From Acetobacteroides hydrogenigenes (GTDB taxonomy: Bacteria; Bacteroidota; Bacteroidia; Bacteroidales; ZOR0009): 64,000 bases of DNA. The position numbers were made by a program, and so were the translations under genes. The stretch spans positions 62,001 through 126,000 of the forward strand of contig NZ_SLWB01000009.1 of the NCBI RefSeq assembly GCF_004340205.1, written 5' to 3'. Positions within the stretch are counted from its first letter, which is position 1, and each line of letters begins with the position of its first letter. The notes below the pieces were generated by a model that worked only from the letters and a program-made list of their open reading frames with translations, searched no databases and was not told the origin of the DNA. Positions 4,814 to 59,456 of this stretch are shown here, in pieces.

Positions 4814-5554
4814 TCACGGCTGGATATCTTCATTCTTCTTTTTCCTTTTCCGTGCGGCAGCGCGCAGCGCCTCGCGCGTTGCCAGCTCCTTGTTCAGCGT
4901 GGACACCCTGCCGCAGAACTTGCTCCACCGCTCGTCGTCCTCCTCCATCAGCTTGGCCTGAAGGTAGACCATGAACACCCGCACTGCCTCCTCGAAGTCG
5001 TGCCTAACCGTTGATGCCGAAAGGATATGCATTTTAGCCCCTCTATCACCGTCGCTTAGGCGCTGGCAGCGCGCAAACTCCGACTCCAGCTCCTCGATCT
5101 GCGCCACTTTTTTCTCCAACCCCAGCTGGCTGATGGCCGCCGCGCAGCTGGGCGACTTCAGGTCCACAAGCAGCTTGTTAAGGTAAGCCGACTCGCCCCC
5201 TGTCGAACCTCGGGTGAAGCTGCTGCCGTAGTGCTCTATCAGCGCCACCAGCGGCTTGGCGGCCTCCTCCTCGTCGGCAAAGCCCGAGCAGGCGGCGCTC
5301 TGAATGGCCAGCACCAGCGAGCGGTACGAGCGGTCGCGCCGCCTATCAATATCGCGCAGCTCCTCGGTGTAAGCGTTCTTCCGAGGCTTGTACCTTCCGT
5401 CCGACAGCTTCTCGTGGGCCTCCGTAAGCCGAAGATAGGGCTTCGAGGTCAACAGCTCGGGTAGGGCCAAGCTCTCGGCGGCCGAAATTAGCGCATATCC
5501 GTACCCGATCTCGTCGTCGAGCTTTGTGCGGGCGAGTGCAACTGTAAGCTTCAT
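4814..5554 (-). CDS. DUF6261-like helical protein
   Basis: The 246-residue, charged, probably all-alpha soluble protein has no signal peptide or membrane segment. The block KNAYTEELRDIDRRRDRSYR near residues 60-80 resembles the DUF6261 family of Bacteroidota, whose function is unknown. The start at 5554 is supported by a good Shine-Dalgarno site (AAGGAG) eight bases before the ATG; the open frame continues upstream to 5683 but without such a site. The C-terminus is rich in Lys and Arg (AARKRKKK), which could contact nucleic acid (inference). Directly upstream, from about 5682, lies an array of palindromic repeats with a strict 42-bp period. Three other loci in this window repeat this association of a ~240-residue helical protein with a 21-bp-period array. 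Confidence 0.75.
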   Translation of the reverse strand: MKLTVALARTKLDDEIGYGYALISAAESLALPELLTSKPYLRLTEAHEKLSDGRYKPRKNAYTEELRDIDRRRDRSYRSLVLAIQSAACSGFADEEEAAKPLVALIEHYGSSFTRGSTGGESAYLNKLLVDLKSPSCAAAISQLGLEKKVAQIEELESEFARCQRLSDGDRGAKMHILSASTVRHDFEEAVRVFMVYLQAKLMEEDDERWSKFCGRVSTLNKELATREALRAAARKRKKKNEDIQP

Positions 5555-5681: not shown

Positions 5682-5954
5682 AAAACCTTGCTCCTCGGAA
5701 ATGGGTAAACGCCTCGAAATTCGTTTCCGAGTATACTCGGAAATCATTCCTCGGCTTCAAAATTGTTTCCGAGCATGCTCGGAAATATCTCTGCAGCCTA
5801 AATCGCATTTCCGAGCATGCTCAGAAGTATTTCTTGAACTAAAAAGTACTTTCCGAGTGCGCTCGGAAATGATTCCAAAGCGTAAAATACATTTCCGAGC
5901 ATGCTCGGAAAGCATTTTTGCCTCCTGCTACCTTTTCCGACTACCGGATGTGGG
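5682..5954. repeat. Array A: 42-bp-period palindromic repeat
   Basis: Palindromes close to TTTCCGAGCATGCTCGGAAA start at 5724, 5766, 5808, 5850 and 5892, exactly 42 bp apart. Half-decayed units at 5682 (right arm only) and 5934 (left arm only) stay in register. Between them are 21-nt segments that differ from unit to unit. The array ends 128 bp upstream of the DUF6261 start codon. Each unit could be a binding site for a dimeric protein or a small hairpin in RNA. Forty-two is twice the 21-bp period of the other three arrays here. Confidence 0.9.
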
Positions 5955-6089
5955 GACTTTTTCAAAGACCAGCATCCCAAATTTAACGAATTTTCTATTT
6001 CAACGGATCGGGTAGTGGTTTTTCTGGATGGGGTTGGCAAAAAAGGGCGCGGCACACCCAAAATGGCGGCTGCTGCAGCCCACACGGAA

Positions 6090-6133: not shown

Positions 6134-6218
6134 GGGGATATTGAGAAACTATGGTGACGTAAGCATAAATGCTTGAAATGAAACCTTAATAGGTTAACGT
6201 AAGGTTAAAATTAGCACG

Positions 6219-6343
6219 ATTCCCCTCCTTTTTAAGGAGGGGTCGGCGCAGCCGGGGGTGGTTGGTGATGGTGGGTAGTACCTAACTATTCCGATTTAAA
6301 CCACCCCGCCCTTCGGGCACCCCTCCTTGGGAAGGAGGGGAAT
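6219..6343. repeat. Inverted CCCCTCC-type dispersed element
   Basis: Outer arms ATTCCCCTCCTT and AAGGAGGGGAAT enclose about 100 bp, including ACCACCCCGCCCTTCGGGCA and its diverged partner GGCGCAGCCGGGGGTGGTT. The same CCCCTCC/GGAGGGG theme recurs at 28348, 29247-29367 and 38159. This looks like a non-coding dispersed repeat common in Bacteroidota intergenic DNA. Confidence 0.65.
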
Positions 6344-6425
6344 ATGCCCTGTACATCCTTTGTCTATAACATCAAGCCCTTACGTAGAATTGACGTTTAA
6401 GTGACTGTGGCTATATACGGAGCAG

Positions 6426-7804: not shown

Positions 7805-8638
7805 ATGGAAAAAAGATTGCTAGACCAAAAGCAGCTGTCGGCCGACGAGGTAAAAGAGCTCGTAAGGAGCAAGTACAGCCAGATTGTGCTACAAGGCAAG
7901 GAGGATAATGCGGCATCGTGCTGCGGCTCGGGTTGCTGTAGCAGCGAGGCGTACAACATCATGAACGACGACTACTCGACCCTCGAAGGCTACAACCCCG
8001 ATGCCGACCTTAGCCTAGGCTGCGGATTGCCCACCCAGTTTGCCAAGATCAGGAAGGGAGATACGGTTATCGACCTTGGCGCGGGTGCCGGAAACGACTG
8101 CTTTGTTGCCCGTCACGAAACAGGCCAAACCGGTAAAGTAATCGGCATCGACTTTACCCCTGCCATGGTTGATAAGGCGCGCGCCAATGCCGCAAAGCTG
8201 GGCTTCGGCAACGTGGAGTTCCGCCTTGGCGACATCGAGCACATGCCGGTTGACGACAGCACAGCCGATGTTGTGGTGAGCAACTGCGTGCTCAACCTGG
8301 TGCCCAACAAGGAAAAGGCAATTAGCGAAATCTACCGCGTGCTAAAGCCTGGCGGCCATTTCAGCATCTCGGATGTGGTGCTGGTTGGCGATCTTCCAAG
8401 GTCGATTCAGAATGCCGCCGAGATGTACGCCGGATGCGTTTCGGGAGCCATTCAAAAGGATGAATACCTTGGAATAATCGAGAGGGTAGGCTTTAAGAGC
8501 ATAACCATTCAAAAGCAGAAGCAAATCGTTGTTCCCGACGATATTCTTGCAAGCTACCTCTCCAGCGAAGAAATCGACAATTTCAAGAAGAGCGGGACGG
8601 GTATATACAGCATTACCGTTTACGCTGAGAAGAACTAG
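7805..8638 (+). CDS. arsM: Arsenite S-adenosylmethionine methyltransferase
   Basis: The 277-residue class I methyltransferase converts arsenite to methylated arsenicals in the cytoplasm. The N-terminal Cys cluster SCCGSGCCSS (about residues 38-47) and the following region resemble ArsM. The AdoMet-binding motif VIDLGAGAGNDCF lies near residues 88-100. The arsenic-binding Cys positions are visible in SNCVLNL and YAGCVSG. The gene sits between arsR and the GNAT/arsC/acr3 genes in the same direction, with its own upstream ArsR-type operator. Confidence 0.92.
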   Translation: MEKRLLDQKQLSADEVKELVRSKYSQIVLQGKEDNAASCCGSGCCSSEAYNIMNDDYSTLEGYNPDADLSLGCGLPTQFAKIRKGDTVIDLGAGAGNDCFVARHETGQTGKVIGIDFTPAMVDKARANAAKLGFGNVEFRLGDIEHMPVDDSTADVVVSNCVLNLVPNKEKAISEIYRVLKPGGHFSISDVVLVGDLPRSIQNAAEMYAGCVSGAIQKDEYLGIIERVGFKSITIQKQKQIVVPDDILASYLSSEEIDNFKKSGTGIYSITVYAEKN

Positions 8639-9622: not shown

Positions 9623-9639
9623 TACATAAAATCTCAAAC

Positions 9640-10689
9640 ATGGAAAGTACCATCAAAAAGCTATCCTTCTTCGACCGTTTCCTAACGCTATGGATATTCC
9701 TAGTTATGTTTGCCGGAGTAGTAGTAGGATACTACACTCCAGGTATCTCGAACTTTTGGAATTCGTTGAGCTCAGGAACGACGAATATCCCCATTGCCAT
9801 AGGTCTAATTCTGATGATGTATCCGCCATTGGCAAAGGTCAAGTACGAGAAGATGCCGTTGGTGTTCAAGAACCTTAAGCTGCTCAGCTTGTCGCTCACG
9901 CAAAACTGGATTGTAGGCCCTCTGGTGATGTTCCTTTTGGCCATCGTCTTTCTGCATAACCACCCCGGACTTATGGTTGGGGTTATTCTTGTGGGGTTAG
10001 CTCGCTGCATAGCCATGGTTCTGGTTTGGAACGACCTCGCCAAAGGCGATACCGAGCTGGCAGCAGGGCTGGTGGCCTTCAACGCCATTTTTCAGGTTTT
10101 TCTGTACTCGGTTTACGCCTACATCTTCATCACTTTGCTACCACCGATTTTTGGGTTAAGCGGTGCTGTTGTTGAGGTTTCCATATCCGAAATCGCAGTA
10201 ACTGTACTAATCTACCTAGGAATACCGTTTGGCTTAGGCTTGCTCTCTAACCTCATTCTCAGAAAGCTGAAGGGCAGCAGCTGGTACTTCACAAAGTTTA
10301 TCCCTAAGATATCGTGGCTTACCCCAATAGCCTTGCTCTTTACCATCTTTGTGATGTTCTCGCTTAAGGGCGAAAAGATTATTGAGCTACCTGCTGATGT
10401 GGTTAGAGTCGCCATTCCGTACACCATTTACTTTGCGCTCATGTTCTTTGCCACCTTCTTTATTGCACGATGGATTGGCGAGGGATACGAGAAATCGACC
10501 ACGCTGGCCTTTACTGCCGGAAGCAACGATTTTGAGTTGGCAATTGCCGTAGCCATTGCGGTGTTCGGAATTAACTCGCAGGCCGCCTTTGCTACCGTAA
10601 TCGGGCCTTTGGTTGAAGTTCCTGTGCTAATTCTGCTCGTTAACGTAGCGCTGTTCTTTAAGCGAAAATATTTTGCGCAAAATAAGTAG
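9640..10689 (+). CDS. acr3: ACR3 family arsenite efflux pump
   Basis: The 349-residue inner-membrane protein has about ten helices and is of the BART superfamily. The conserved transport Cys is visible at residue 123 in [13 protein letters not shown], and the [20 protein letters not shown] motif near the C-terminus is diagnostic for ACR3. It expels arsenite produced by ArsC. The gene follows arsC by 17 bp and is the last of the operon, ended by a clear terminator. Confidence 0.95.
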
Positions 10690-21430: not shown

Positions 21431-21550
21431 CTACCAATAGCTGCATGTTGTCCTCCCACTTAGGCTACGCTCAGCGATCGGCAGGGAGTAGGGGCGTACT
21501 TTTCGTTAGCTCCATTAGCTTCGAAGCGCATAAATAGGGTTTCGACAGAA

Positions 21551-21919
21551 GTCTACGGAGCTTCTACGATGCTTTACACCCTTTCGAGGAACGTTTACGG
21601 AGCTTCGAGAGATCTTTACGCCCTTTCGAAGATGGTCAACACCTTTCAAAATATAGCTTACGCCATTCTGACGATGGTCTGCGCCATTCTGAATATAGTT
21701 TACGCCATTCTGAAAATGGTTTACGAGCTCGTAAACCATTTTCAGAAGCTCGTAAACCTTCTTCAGAATGGCGTAAACTTCTCTCTAAAGCCCGTAAGCT
21801 ACTTTCGAAGCTCCGAAAACCTTTCTCGAAGCTCCGTAAAGCATTGTCGAAATAGCCGAAACCATTATCGAAGCTTCGTAAGCTTCTCTCGAAATGGCGT
21901 TGACCATATTCGAAGGGCA
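21551..21919. repeat. Array B: convergent 21-bp repeats with central palindrome
   Basis: Nine units related to GTTTACGCCATTCTGAAAAT start at 21551, 21572, 21593, 21614, 21635, 21656, 21677, 21698 and 21719, exactly 21 bp apart. They meet a perfect 36-bp palindrome at 21710-21745 (centre GAGCTC). Beyond it the same unit runs in the opposite orientation, with GTAAAC-type ends at 21731, 21752, 21773, 21794, 21815, 21836, about 21857, 21878 and 21899. The units diverge outward from the centre. The array lies about 600 bp upstream of the helical protein gene at 22516. Confidence 0.92.
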
Positions 21920-46009: not shown

Positions 46010-46047
46010 AAGGCGGAAGCACCCCGTAAGGTTGCTTCCGCCTTCTT
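46010..46047 (+). terminator. Terminator of the 45232 gene
   Basis: AGGCGGAAGCA and TGCTTCCGCCT form a strong stem with a loop of about 11 nt and a T-rich tail, placed between the gene and array C. Confidence 0.85.
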
Positions 46048-46069
46048 TATTCCAGTAGCCGTTCTCAAG

Positions 46070-46329
46070 CTTTAGGCCTCCCTGCTGCCGCTTTTCGGTT
46101 CCTGCCCGATACTTCTTGCCTCCCGTCTGCAGCTTTTGCCTTCCTGCCTGACGCTTTTGGTTTCCGGCCTGATACTTTTAGCTTCCGGTTCGACACTTCT
46201 TGCTTCCCGGTTGTAGCTTTTAGCATCCTGCCTCAAGCTTTTCGCTTCCCACCTGTCACTTTTCGCTTCCGGTTCGACACTTCTTGCTTCCCGGTTGTAG
46301 CTTTTAGCTTCCCGCCTCAAGCTTTTAAC
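46070..46329. repeat. Array C: 21-bp direct repeats with 84-bp higher order
   Basis: Twelve units related to CTTTTAGCTTCCGGTTCGAC start at 46070, 46091, 46112, 46133, 46154, 46175, 46196, 46217, 46238, 46259, 46280 and 46301, each exactly 21 bp long, followed by a partial unit. Units 46175-46237 recur almost unchanged at 46259-46321, an 84-bp (four-unit) repeat. All units point the same way. The terminator of the helical protein gene at 45232 precedes it. Confidence 0.93.
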
Positions 46330-46479
46330 ATCATATTTACTAGCTAAAGCTAAATAAAGGCCGTTTTCGAGGCCTCCTTTGCGGGGCACTTCGGCCGCCC
46401 CCATAAAAGCCTTTGCCGTCAGGACTATTTCAGGACTATTTATAGAAGAACAAAAGCAGGGCGTTAAATTGATGGACAC

Positions 46480-59269: not shown

Positions 59270-59456
59270 CTTAGCTAATACCTGCCGGAGCTTAATGGGA
59301 CGTTATTGCTCTTTAATAGCCCGTTGCCAGGCTTAATGGCAGATTTCTGCGCTTAATGAGGATTTTGCATGCCTTAACGAAACATTTCCGAAGCTTAACG
59401 GAATCTTTCCGAAATTTAGTGGAATCTTTCGAAAGTATTTAGCATACATTAAGCTT
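59270..59456. repeat. Array D: 20-21-bp direct repeats
   Basis: Units related to CTTAACGGAATCTTTCCGAA start at 59270, 59291, 59312, 59332, 59352, 59373, 59394 and 59415, with a final decayed unit from 59436. Spacing is 21 bp except for two of 20. The array starts 305 bp upstream of the minus-strand gene at 58240-58965. Its unit sequence differs from arrays A, B and C. Confidence 0.85.

Follow-up and report, generated by a model that had tools for sequence, protein, structure and literature searches.

A tandem array of phased palindromes beside a DUF6261 gene, and the recurrence of this gene-array arrangement across Bacteroidota

The window considered here is the whole stretch of 64,000 nucleotides that was analyzed from the genome of Acetobacteroides hydrogenigenes (G000 below; G001 and G002 are two congeners). 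On its minus strand, at 4814-5554, lies a gene of the DUF6261 family (PF19775) that encodes 246 residues if translation starts at 5554, an in-frame ATG 63 nucleotides farther upstream being a possible alternative start. Directly upstream of this gene, about 130 nucleotides away, positions 5682-5954 hold a tandem array, termed array A and, like all its parts, given without strand, whose 42-bp rows carry five full palindromes and one half-site at each end. The five 20-bp palindromes, of the form TTTCCGAG-N4-CTCGGAAA, follow one another exactly 42 bp apart between 5724 and 5911. The first (5724-5743) has the center TATA, the second (5766-5785) and the fifth (5892-5911) have the center CATG, the fourth (5850-5869) has the center TGCG, and the third (5808-5827) has two mismatches in its right arm. 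The array opens with the right half-site CTCGGAAA at 5694-5701, in the row starting at 5682, and closes with the left half-site TTTCCGA at 5934-5940, in the row starting at 5934. A non-coding block adjoining the far end (5957-5989, minus strand) is near-identical in G002 and contains, on the minus strand, TAAATTTG, a possible Bacteroidota -7 box; promoter scans with the Bacteroidota consensus pointed to no clear place. Beyond this block, at about 6188-6424, are inverted repeats of the CCCCTCCTTTTTAAGGAGGGG type, present in G000 and absent at the orthologous place in G002; this stretch is possibly a small inserted element.

A first-pass annotation of this DNA had placed palindromes at 5724, 5766, 5808, 5850 and 5892, with half-units at both ends in exact 42-bp register, and these positions are confirmed. 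The 42-bp alternation that it described also stands, whereas its division into 21 and 21 nucleotides is corrected to a 20-nucleotide palindrome and a 22-nucleotide spacer. The accompanying statement that the spacers are not conserved does not hold: the 24 spacers of the four arrays that carry this palindrome, read as 22 nucleotides, share a weak directional consensus (9.6 bits versus 2.2 ± 0.4 in shuffles), with C at position 12 and AAA at positions 16-18. In a self-similarity scan array A scores 60 at lag 42. When 464 kb of G000 were scanned at lags of 12 to 89, the lags of 21 and 42 gave 21 and 28 matches with a score of at least 16, those of 63 and 84 gave 15 and 23, and no other lag gave more than 4; because only these four lags form peaks, array A is one member of a large class rather than a product of chance. 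In intergenic DNA free of arrays, lag 42 does not stand out and lag 21 does so only weakly (1.65 standard deviations), and at gathering thresholds Rfam has no match in the window. A coding interpretation was considered, as array A is open in a plus frame, and was dropped because arrays with periods of 41, 43, 44 and 85 bp, none divisible by three, occur.

The first-pass annotation was in no position to recognize the decisive context, namely that the neighbor of array A is a DUF6261 gene and that such arrays and such genes go together in general. This association extends well beyond the window. Genome-wide searches find 33 DUF6261 genes in G000, 18 in G001 and 38 in G002. An upstream array, defined by a period of 39-45 bp, a score of at least 17 and a position no more than 900 nucleotides upstream (less where the contig ended), accompanies 33 of 33, 13 of 18 and 36 of 38 of them, respectively. 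The same holds for 23 of 29 genes from other Bacteroidales (one gene from each of 27 genomes of other genera and two more from one genome) and, outside the order, for 12 of 16 genes drawn from eight genomes. The total is 117 of 134, with 17 genes lacking an array at this threshold, and at a stricter score of at least 20 an array is still found upstream of 32 of the 33 genes in G000. The sample comprises every DUF6261 gene of G000, G001 and G002 and, elsewhere, the genes whose loci were returned; it leaves aside L234, which falls below the Pfam cut-off, six of the seven DUF6261 genes of genome G031 and other genes of the order without a returned locus. A downstream array accompanies only 1 of the 134 genes, and upstream arrays with control periods are similarly rare (2 of 134 for 30-36 bp, 3 of 134 for 48-54 bp). 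Among other genes of at least 200 codons, G000 has 18 with an upstream and 23 with a downstream array out of 236, and the samples from other Bacteroidales have 3 and 4, respectively, out of 316. The 117 arrays are narrowly distributed in period (42 bp in 65, 41 bp in 44, 43 bp in 5 and 40 bp in 3), contain up to about a dozen units, number up to dozens of gene-linked examples per genome and, in G000, end 73-368 nucleotides (median 155) from the start codon. The family itself is patchy, occurring in 31 of 295 genomes of the order and in 12 of 395 in a phylum-wide draw, 11 of these above the cut-off; Breznakibacter xylanolyticus DSM 6779 is among its carriers. That a DUF6261 gene with its upstream tandem array forms a recurrent module across Bacteroidota is thus virtually certain. 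In most of these arrays the unit contains a recognizable, if imperfect, dyad. The module is apparently undescribed, as the open-license literature searched, in which a single paper mentions DUF6261, gave no account of it or of such arrays; a description elsewhere is possible.

The window protein matches PF19775 with an E value of 2.1e-21 and 76.9 bits, well above the curated cut-off of 27; the Pfam scan assigned it DUF6261 only, with no Y1 (HUH) transposase, and the gene adjoining another array in the same scan was assigned DUF6261 too. An AlphaFold model is all-helical (pLDDT 95.9, pTM 0.79). Foldseek comparison of this model with the Protein Data Bank and viral models returned nothing at an E value of 0.001 or lower, and a profile search of solved structures gave a best E value of 0.1, to an unrelated protein. 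The best structural match by VIA-align was LemA (2etd; Z 10.2, root mean square deviation 2.6, 115 residues aligned), and an accessory subunit of a DGR (8ube_D) was also matched (Z 7.7, deviation 3.0, 92 aligned); neither was used, because helical bundles reach such values by chance. Three DUF6261 proteins had no match in PADLOC, NCBIfam or PHROGs, and a plasmid search with the window protein found none. The best-kept residues of the family include D70, R73, D74, G110 and E121 (window numbering), and the isoelectric points have a median of 6.2, with 59% of 66 members under 6.5.

The palindrome of array A is confined to few places. Allowing up to two mismatches, G000 contains 11 matches, 10 of them within two arrays, array A itself (on C9) and a second array at an unlinked site (C1:62840-63096); the single match outside is a two-mismatch match. 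In G002 all 10 matches fall in the two matching arrays. A reversed-pattern control gives 3 to 4 matches in each of the three genomes. G001 has 2 matches, below its control of 4, and its genes flanking the sister-array site are about 2.5 kb apart; the palindrome is taken as absent from that genome. Five palindromes and two half-sites make up each of the four arrays, and the G002 orthologue of array A aligns without gaps and with equal unit number. Irregular spacing in related strains had been named beforehand as an outcome that would speak against selection, and in the one sister species checked both spacing and copy number are kept. Both G002 arrays are intact despite an in-frame TAG in the orthologous DUF6261 gene (L016, 8107-8844), beyond which coding similarity continues.

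Within the 20 palindrome copies of these four arrays, the left arm TTCCGAG is invariant, whereas the right arm has two variable positions without compensation (C-A in 5 and G-A in 2 of the 20), and variation is concentrated in the central four nucleotides and the outermost pair. The palindromes are 81-90% identical within and between the arrays, as against 35-55% for the intervening spacers, which in register between species are 55% identical. This disparity, together with a copy number and register that both species retain in both arrays, supports the view that the dyad of each unit is under constraint and is not a product of recent copying. The first-pass suggestion of selection on pairing or on dimer binding, rather than simple copying, is thereby upheld as regards copying; selection on pairing as such did not fare as well. 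As to its observation that variants keep self-complementarity in part, the inner arms are nearly invariant and hence say little about covariation. In array A alone, pairing is 94% within units versus 88% between units (z 2.45, with the axis chosen for pairing), and in its G002 orthologue the corresponding z is -0.75. The arms are kept mainly through sequence identity; dimer binding is at least as good an explanation as pairing.

A broader question is whether each DUF6261 protein is matched to an array of its own. Arrays of different DUF6261 genes share very little sequence, the median fraction of shared 8-mers being 0.006 over 48 arrays, and the median identity of DUF6261 proteins within G000 is 16%. 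The duplicate genes C1:274649 and C3:254352 encode proteins that are 98% identical and have arrays that are 94% identical; a clear relationship also links the arrays in several sets of presumed orthologues, and in two further pairs of paralogues part of the array sequence is shared. Array sequence is mostly private to each paralogue, close duplicates apart. Some presumed orthologues with 76-82% protein identity nonetheless have arrays with few 8-mers in common, so palindromes do change. Protein and array divergence are correlated (Mantel r 0.49 for 33 genes, reached in 0 of 2000 permutations), a correlation that rests on few close pairs and may reflect common descent alone.

Arrays without a DUF6261 partner add to this picture. 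Among 23 such orphan arrays of G000 (21 from two scanned stretches and two fetched for their resemblance to a third), 5 match a gene-linked array at an E value of 1e-3 or lower, versus none for reversed arrays; the other 18 have no gene-linked match, and several of them have a strong 21-bp period. In an earlier collection of 45 arrays with periods of 41-44 bp, taken from the first samples of G000, G001 and G002, the unit sequences mostly differ and many, not all, are palindromic; by our own open reading frame calls, 17 lie between convergent, 12 between divergent and 13 between same-strand genes, with 3 at the end of a stretch. A blastp survey of genes near 16 arrays, including three loci of a family designated E, found no neighbor common to that family. 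Array positions are stable: of 18 G000 arrays with a score of at least 30 and syntenic flanks, 16 have an array between the corresponding flanks in G002 (intervals of up to 3.3 kb, with a score of 25 for one of the G002 arrays); for 7 further arrays this procedure gave no synteny. Among syntenic intergenic gaps of at least 250 nucleotides, G002 has an array in 8 of 9 with a G000 array and in 7 of 24 without. At some loci the sequence has wholly changed between G000 and G002 while the period is kept, and the odd periods 43, 44 and 85 are common to both.

Several individual arrays illustrate these variations. The orphan arrays L031:1918-2200 and L048:17114-17432 have a period of 44 bp, and L035:3232-3601 and L042:15372-15759 one of 85 bp (42+43), in each case with the period shared between the two species. 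Separated by 15 kb, the arrays L027:9747-10142 and L028:4564-4885 resemble each other more than they resemble their orthologues, as do their G002 counterparts, a pattern that suggests exchange between arrays. In the window, a 21/42-bp array at 21517-21915 has its halves in opposite orientation, forming a large inverted repeat, with a relative near the matching G002 gene (L051:3811-4246); an array at 46032-46351 has periods of 21, 42 and 84 bp, no DUF6261 gene beside it and a relative at the syntenic G002 place; and a weak 21-bp array at 59290-59438 has no known partner gene. In G020, another member of the Bacteroidales, the search yielded no DUF6261 gene; its locus L064 carries two related arrays with a 23-bp period, at 8231-8298 and 9629-9756.

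In gene-sense stems of 69 arrays, G-T mismatches are no more frequent than A-C mismatches (85 versus 117; by array, 22 versus 30, p 0.33), so that no preference for G-U is apparent, and 81 arrays show no T-tract bias after the dyad (p 0.37). Strand asymmetry is weak, with one of four composition tests at p 0.047 uncorrected and an AT skew of 0.040 (standard error 0.019). The average dyad of 51 arrays has half-sites conserved 3-7 nucleotides from the axis around a more variable center; since the axis was chosen for pairing, its pairing values lean upward. Palindromicity exceeds the mean of column shuffles in 69 of 75 gene-linked arrays and exceeds all 20 shuffles in 32. The proposed check for covariation in the palindrome arms, extended to many arrays, proved equivocal, as its sign depends on the rule for choosing the axis: when within-unit pairing sets the axis, the 45 sampled arrays give Z +6.5 and 113 gene-linked arrays +4.0, and when cross-unit pairing sets it, Z is -2.3 and -3.3, respectively. 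In a split test, half of the units served to choose the axis and the remaining half to test it; Z was then 3.1 for the 39 usable arrays among the 45 sampled and 0.7 for the 79 usable among 117 gene-linked arrays. In all these statistics, units within an array are not independent. Together, these sequence properties suggest that the arrays probably function at the level of DNA rather than RNA.

The alternative that fares best among those weighed is a type III toxin-antitoxin-like system, in which array RNA cut into units of about 42 nucleotides would restrain a toxic DUF6261 protein encoded downstream. The layout is that of toxIN, whose repeats precede the gene in a non-integer number of units (ToxI comprises 5.5 repeats of 36 nucleotides; PMC5086642), and the DUF6261-linked repeat is mostly private to each of many paralogues per genome. 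The conserved block with its possible promoter beyond the far end of array A, and the within-unit covariation of array A taken alone (z 2.45), would also fit. So would the terminator-like sites found by a simple scan of our own between array and gene, 11 of 105 in sense versus 3 in antisense orientation, and the palindromes of array A, which look terminator-like on both strands. Against these points, 94 of the 105 intervals have no such site in that scan; palindromes as RNA terminators in general were rejected for the missing T-tract bias, and the mismatch counts likewise run against an RNA stem. Three DUF6261 members have no PADLOC or NCBIfam match, and the all-helical DUF6261 model appears unlike ToxN. 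On balance this explanation is unlikely.

A REP/RAYT-like arrangement, in which DUF6261 would spread or maintain its own palindromes and the orphan arrays would be non-autonomous copies, is a distinctly doubtful alternative. The unlinked second array with the gene-linked palindrome, the many families with their patchy distribution (31 of 295 genomes of the order; 12 of 395 phylum-wide) and, in some families, a closer resemblance of arrays inside one genome than among orthologues could be so explained. RAYT genes are flanked by REPs (PMC2817692); DUF6261 arrays are one-sided (117 upstream versus 1 downstream of 134), the one family counted genome-wide, that of the array A palindrome, amounts to two arrays with no clear single copies, the protein has no transposase-family match, and 16 of 18 syntenic array positions are conserved between species. 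Still less probable, and very much so, are neutral tandem quasi-palindromes whose symmetry is kept by template switching during replication. According to PMC8794818, hairpins with compensatory changes can arise and persist through this process, and it would suit the turnover of array sequence at fixed positions. It does not predict an upstream-only association with one family across a phylum, which contradicts the neutral reading, nor the near-invariance of the arms among the 20 copies from two loci of G000 and G002, and it may contribute to turnover. A CRISPR-like memory array of palindromic repeats and variable spacers, suggested by the 21/21-nucleotide look of array A, is already contradicted and has next to no probability, given spacers with a consensus that are 55% identical in register between species, a constant copy number, a DUF6261 gene as neighbor and many gene-linked arrays that repeat nearly the whole unit.

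The reading that we prefer, tentatively, is that of a double-stranded DNA platform recognized by a specific protein acting in trans, in the simplest case DUF6261 and otherwise a partner. As 41-42 bp is about four turns of B-DNA, successive dyads would lie four helical turns apart on one face of the helix. A dimeric palindrome-specific protein, most simply the neighboring DUF6261 product, would bind them in succession, and the bound dimers would build a cooperative nucleoprotein complex controlling the gene itself; the same protein would also act at orphan arrays carrying its palindrome. That DUF6261 is itself the reader is predicted at just short of an even chance. Its lack of a clear fold match and its mostly low isoelectric point speak against DNA binding. 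Against the reading more generally stand the 18 of 23 unmatched orphans, the diverged arrays of some orthologues, the in-frame TAG in the G002 gene whose arrays are intact, the 17 of 134 genes without an array, a palindromicity that is not universal and the weak strand asymmetry. The chances appear evenly balanced that DUF6261 founds a new class of module in which each of up to dozens of paralogues per genome reads private dyads, fixed at four helical turns, at its own locus and at a few orphan arrays. If this were true, nucleoprotein (or ribonucleoprotein) systems orthogonal to one another would exist in Bacteroidota in large variety. Protein-DNA (or protein-RNA) recognition pairs, many and independent of each other, may be available from one fold. 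An uncharacterized family gains a near-obligate partner of fixed geometry and mostly private sequence, so its function becomes testable by pairing each protein with its own array. The module also explains part of the intergenic repeats of the phylum that could otherwise pass for noise or CRISPR-like debris.

Comparison with known systems places these features in context. Like CRISPR arrays, array A alternates a palindromic repeat with a less conserved spacer; unlike them, it has DUF6261 in place of a cas gene, a spacer consensus and a copy number fixed in the four arrays compared, among which spacers are neither unrelated nor subject to turnover. Gene-linked palindromes with further copies at unlinked intergenic sites recall REP/BIME elements and their RAYTs. 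Here, however, the array lies on the upstream side only, with strict 41-42 bp phasing and stable positions; flanking of the gene on both sides by inverted REPs was not found among the 134 DUF6261 genes; the array A palindrome occurs in two arrays per genome (G000 and G002) rather than in numerous dispersed copies; and DUF6261 has no match to the tyrosine transposase family or to Y1 (HUH). Type III toxin-antitoxin loci (toxIN, cptIN, tenpIN) share tandem repeats directly upstream of a protein gene, a fractional copy number and a repeat mostly private to each protein. DUF6261 arrays differ from them in a period of 40-43 bp, mostly 41-42, without an RNA-type mismatch bias, in related orphan arrays elsewhere and in intervals that mostly lack a terminator-like site in a simple scan; as to ToxN, Pfam gives DUF6261 only, and absence from the list of fold matches excludes nothing. 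Unlike multi-site operators, the arrays have up to about a dozen units, with dozens of them gene-linked per genome, orphans also between convergent genes and a protein without a recognized DNA-binding domain; with operators bound by cooperative dimers they share same-face dyads, conserved half-sites, a variable center and a position beside the gene.
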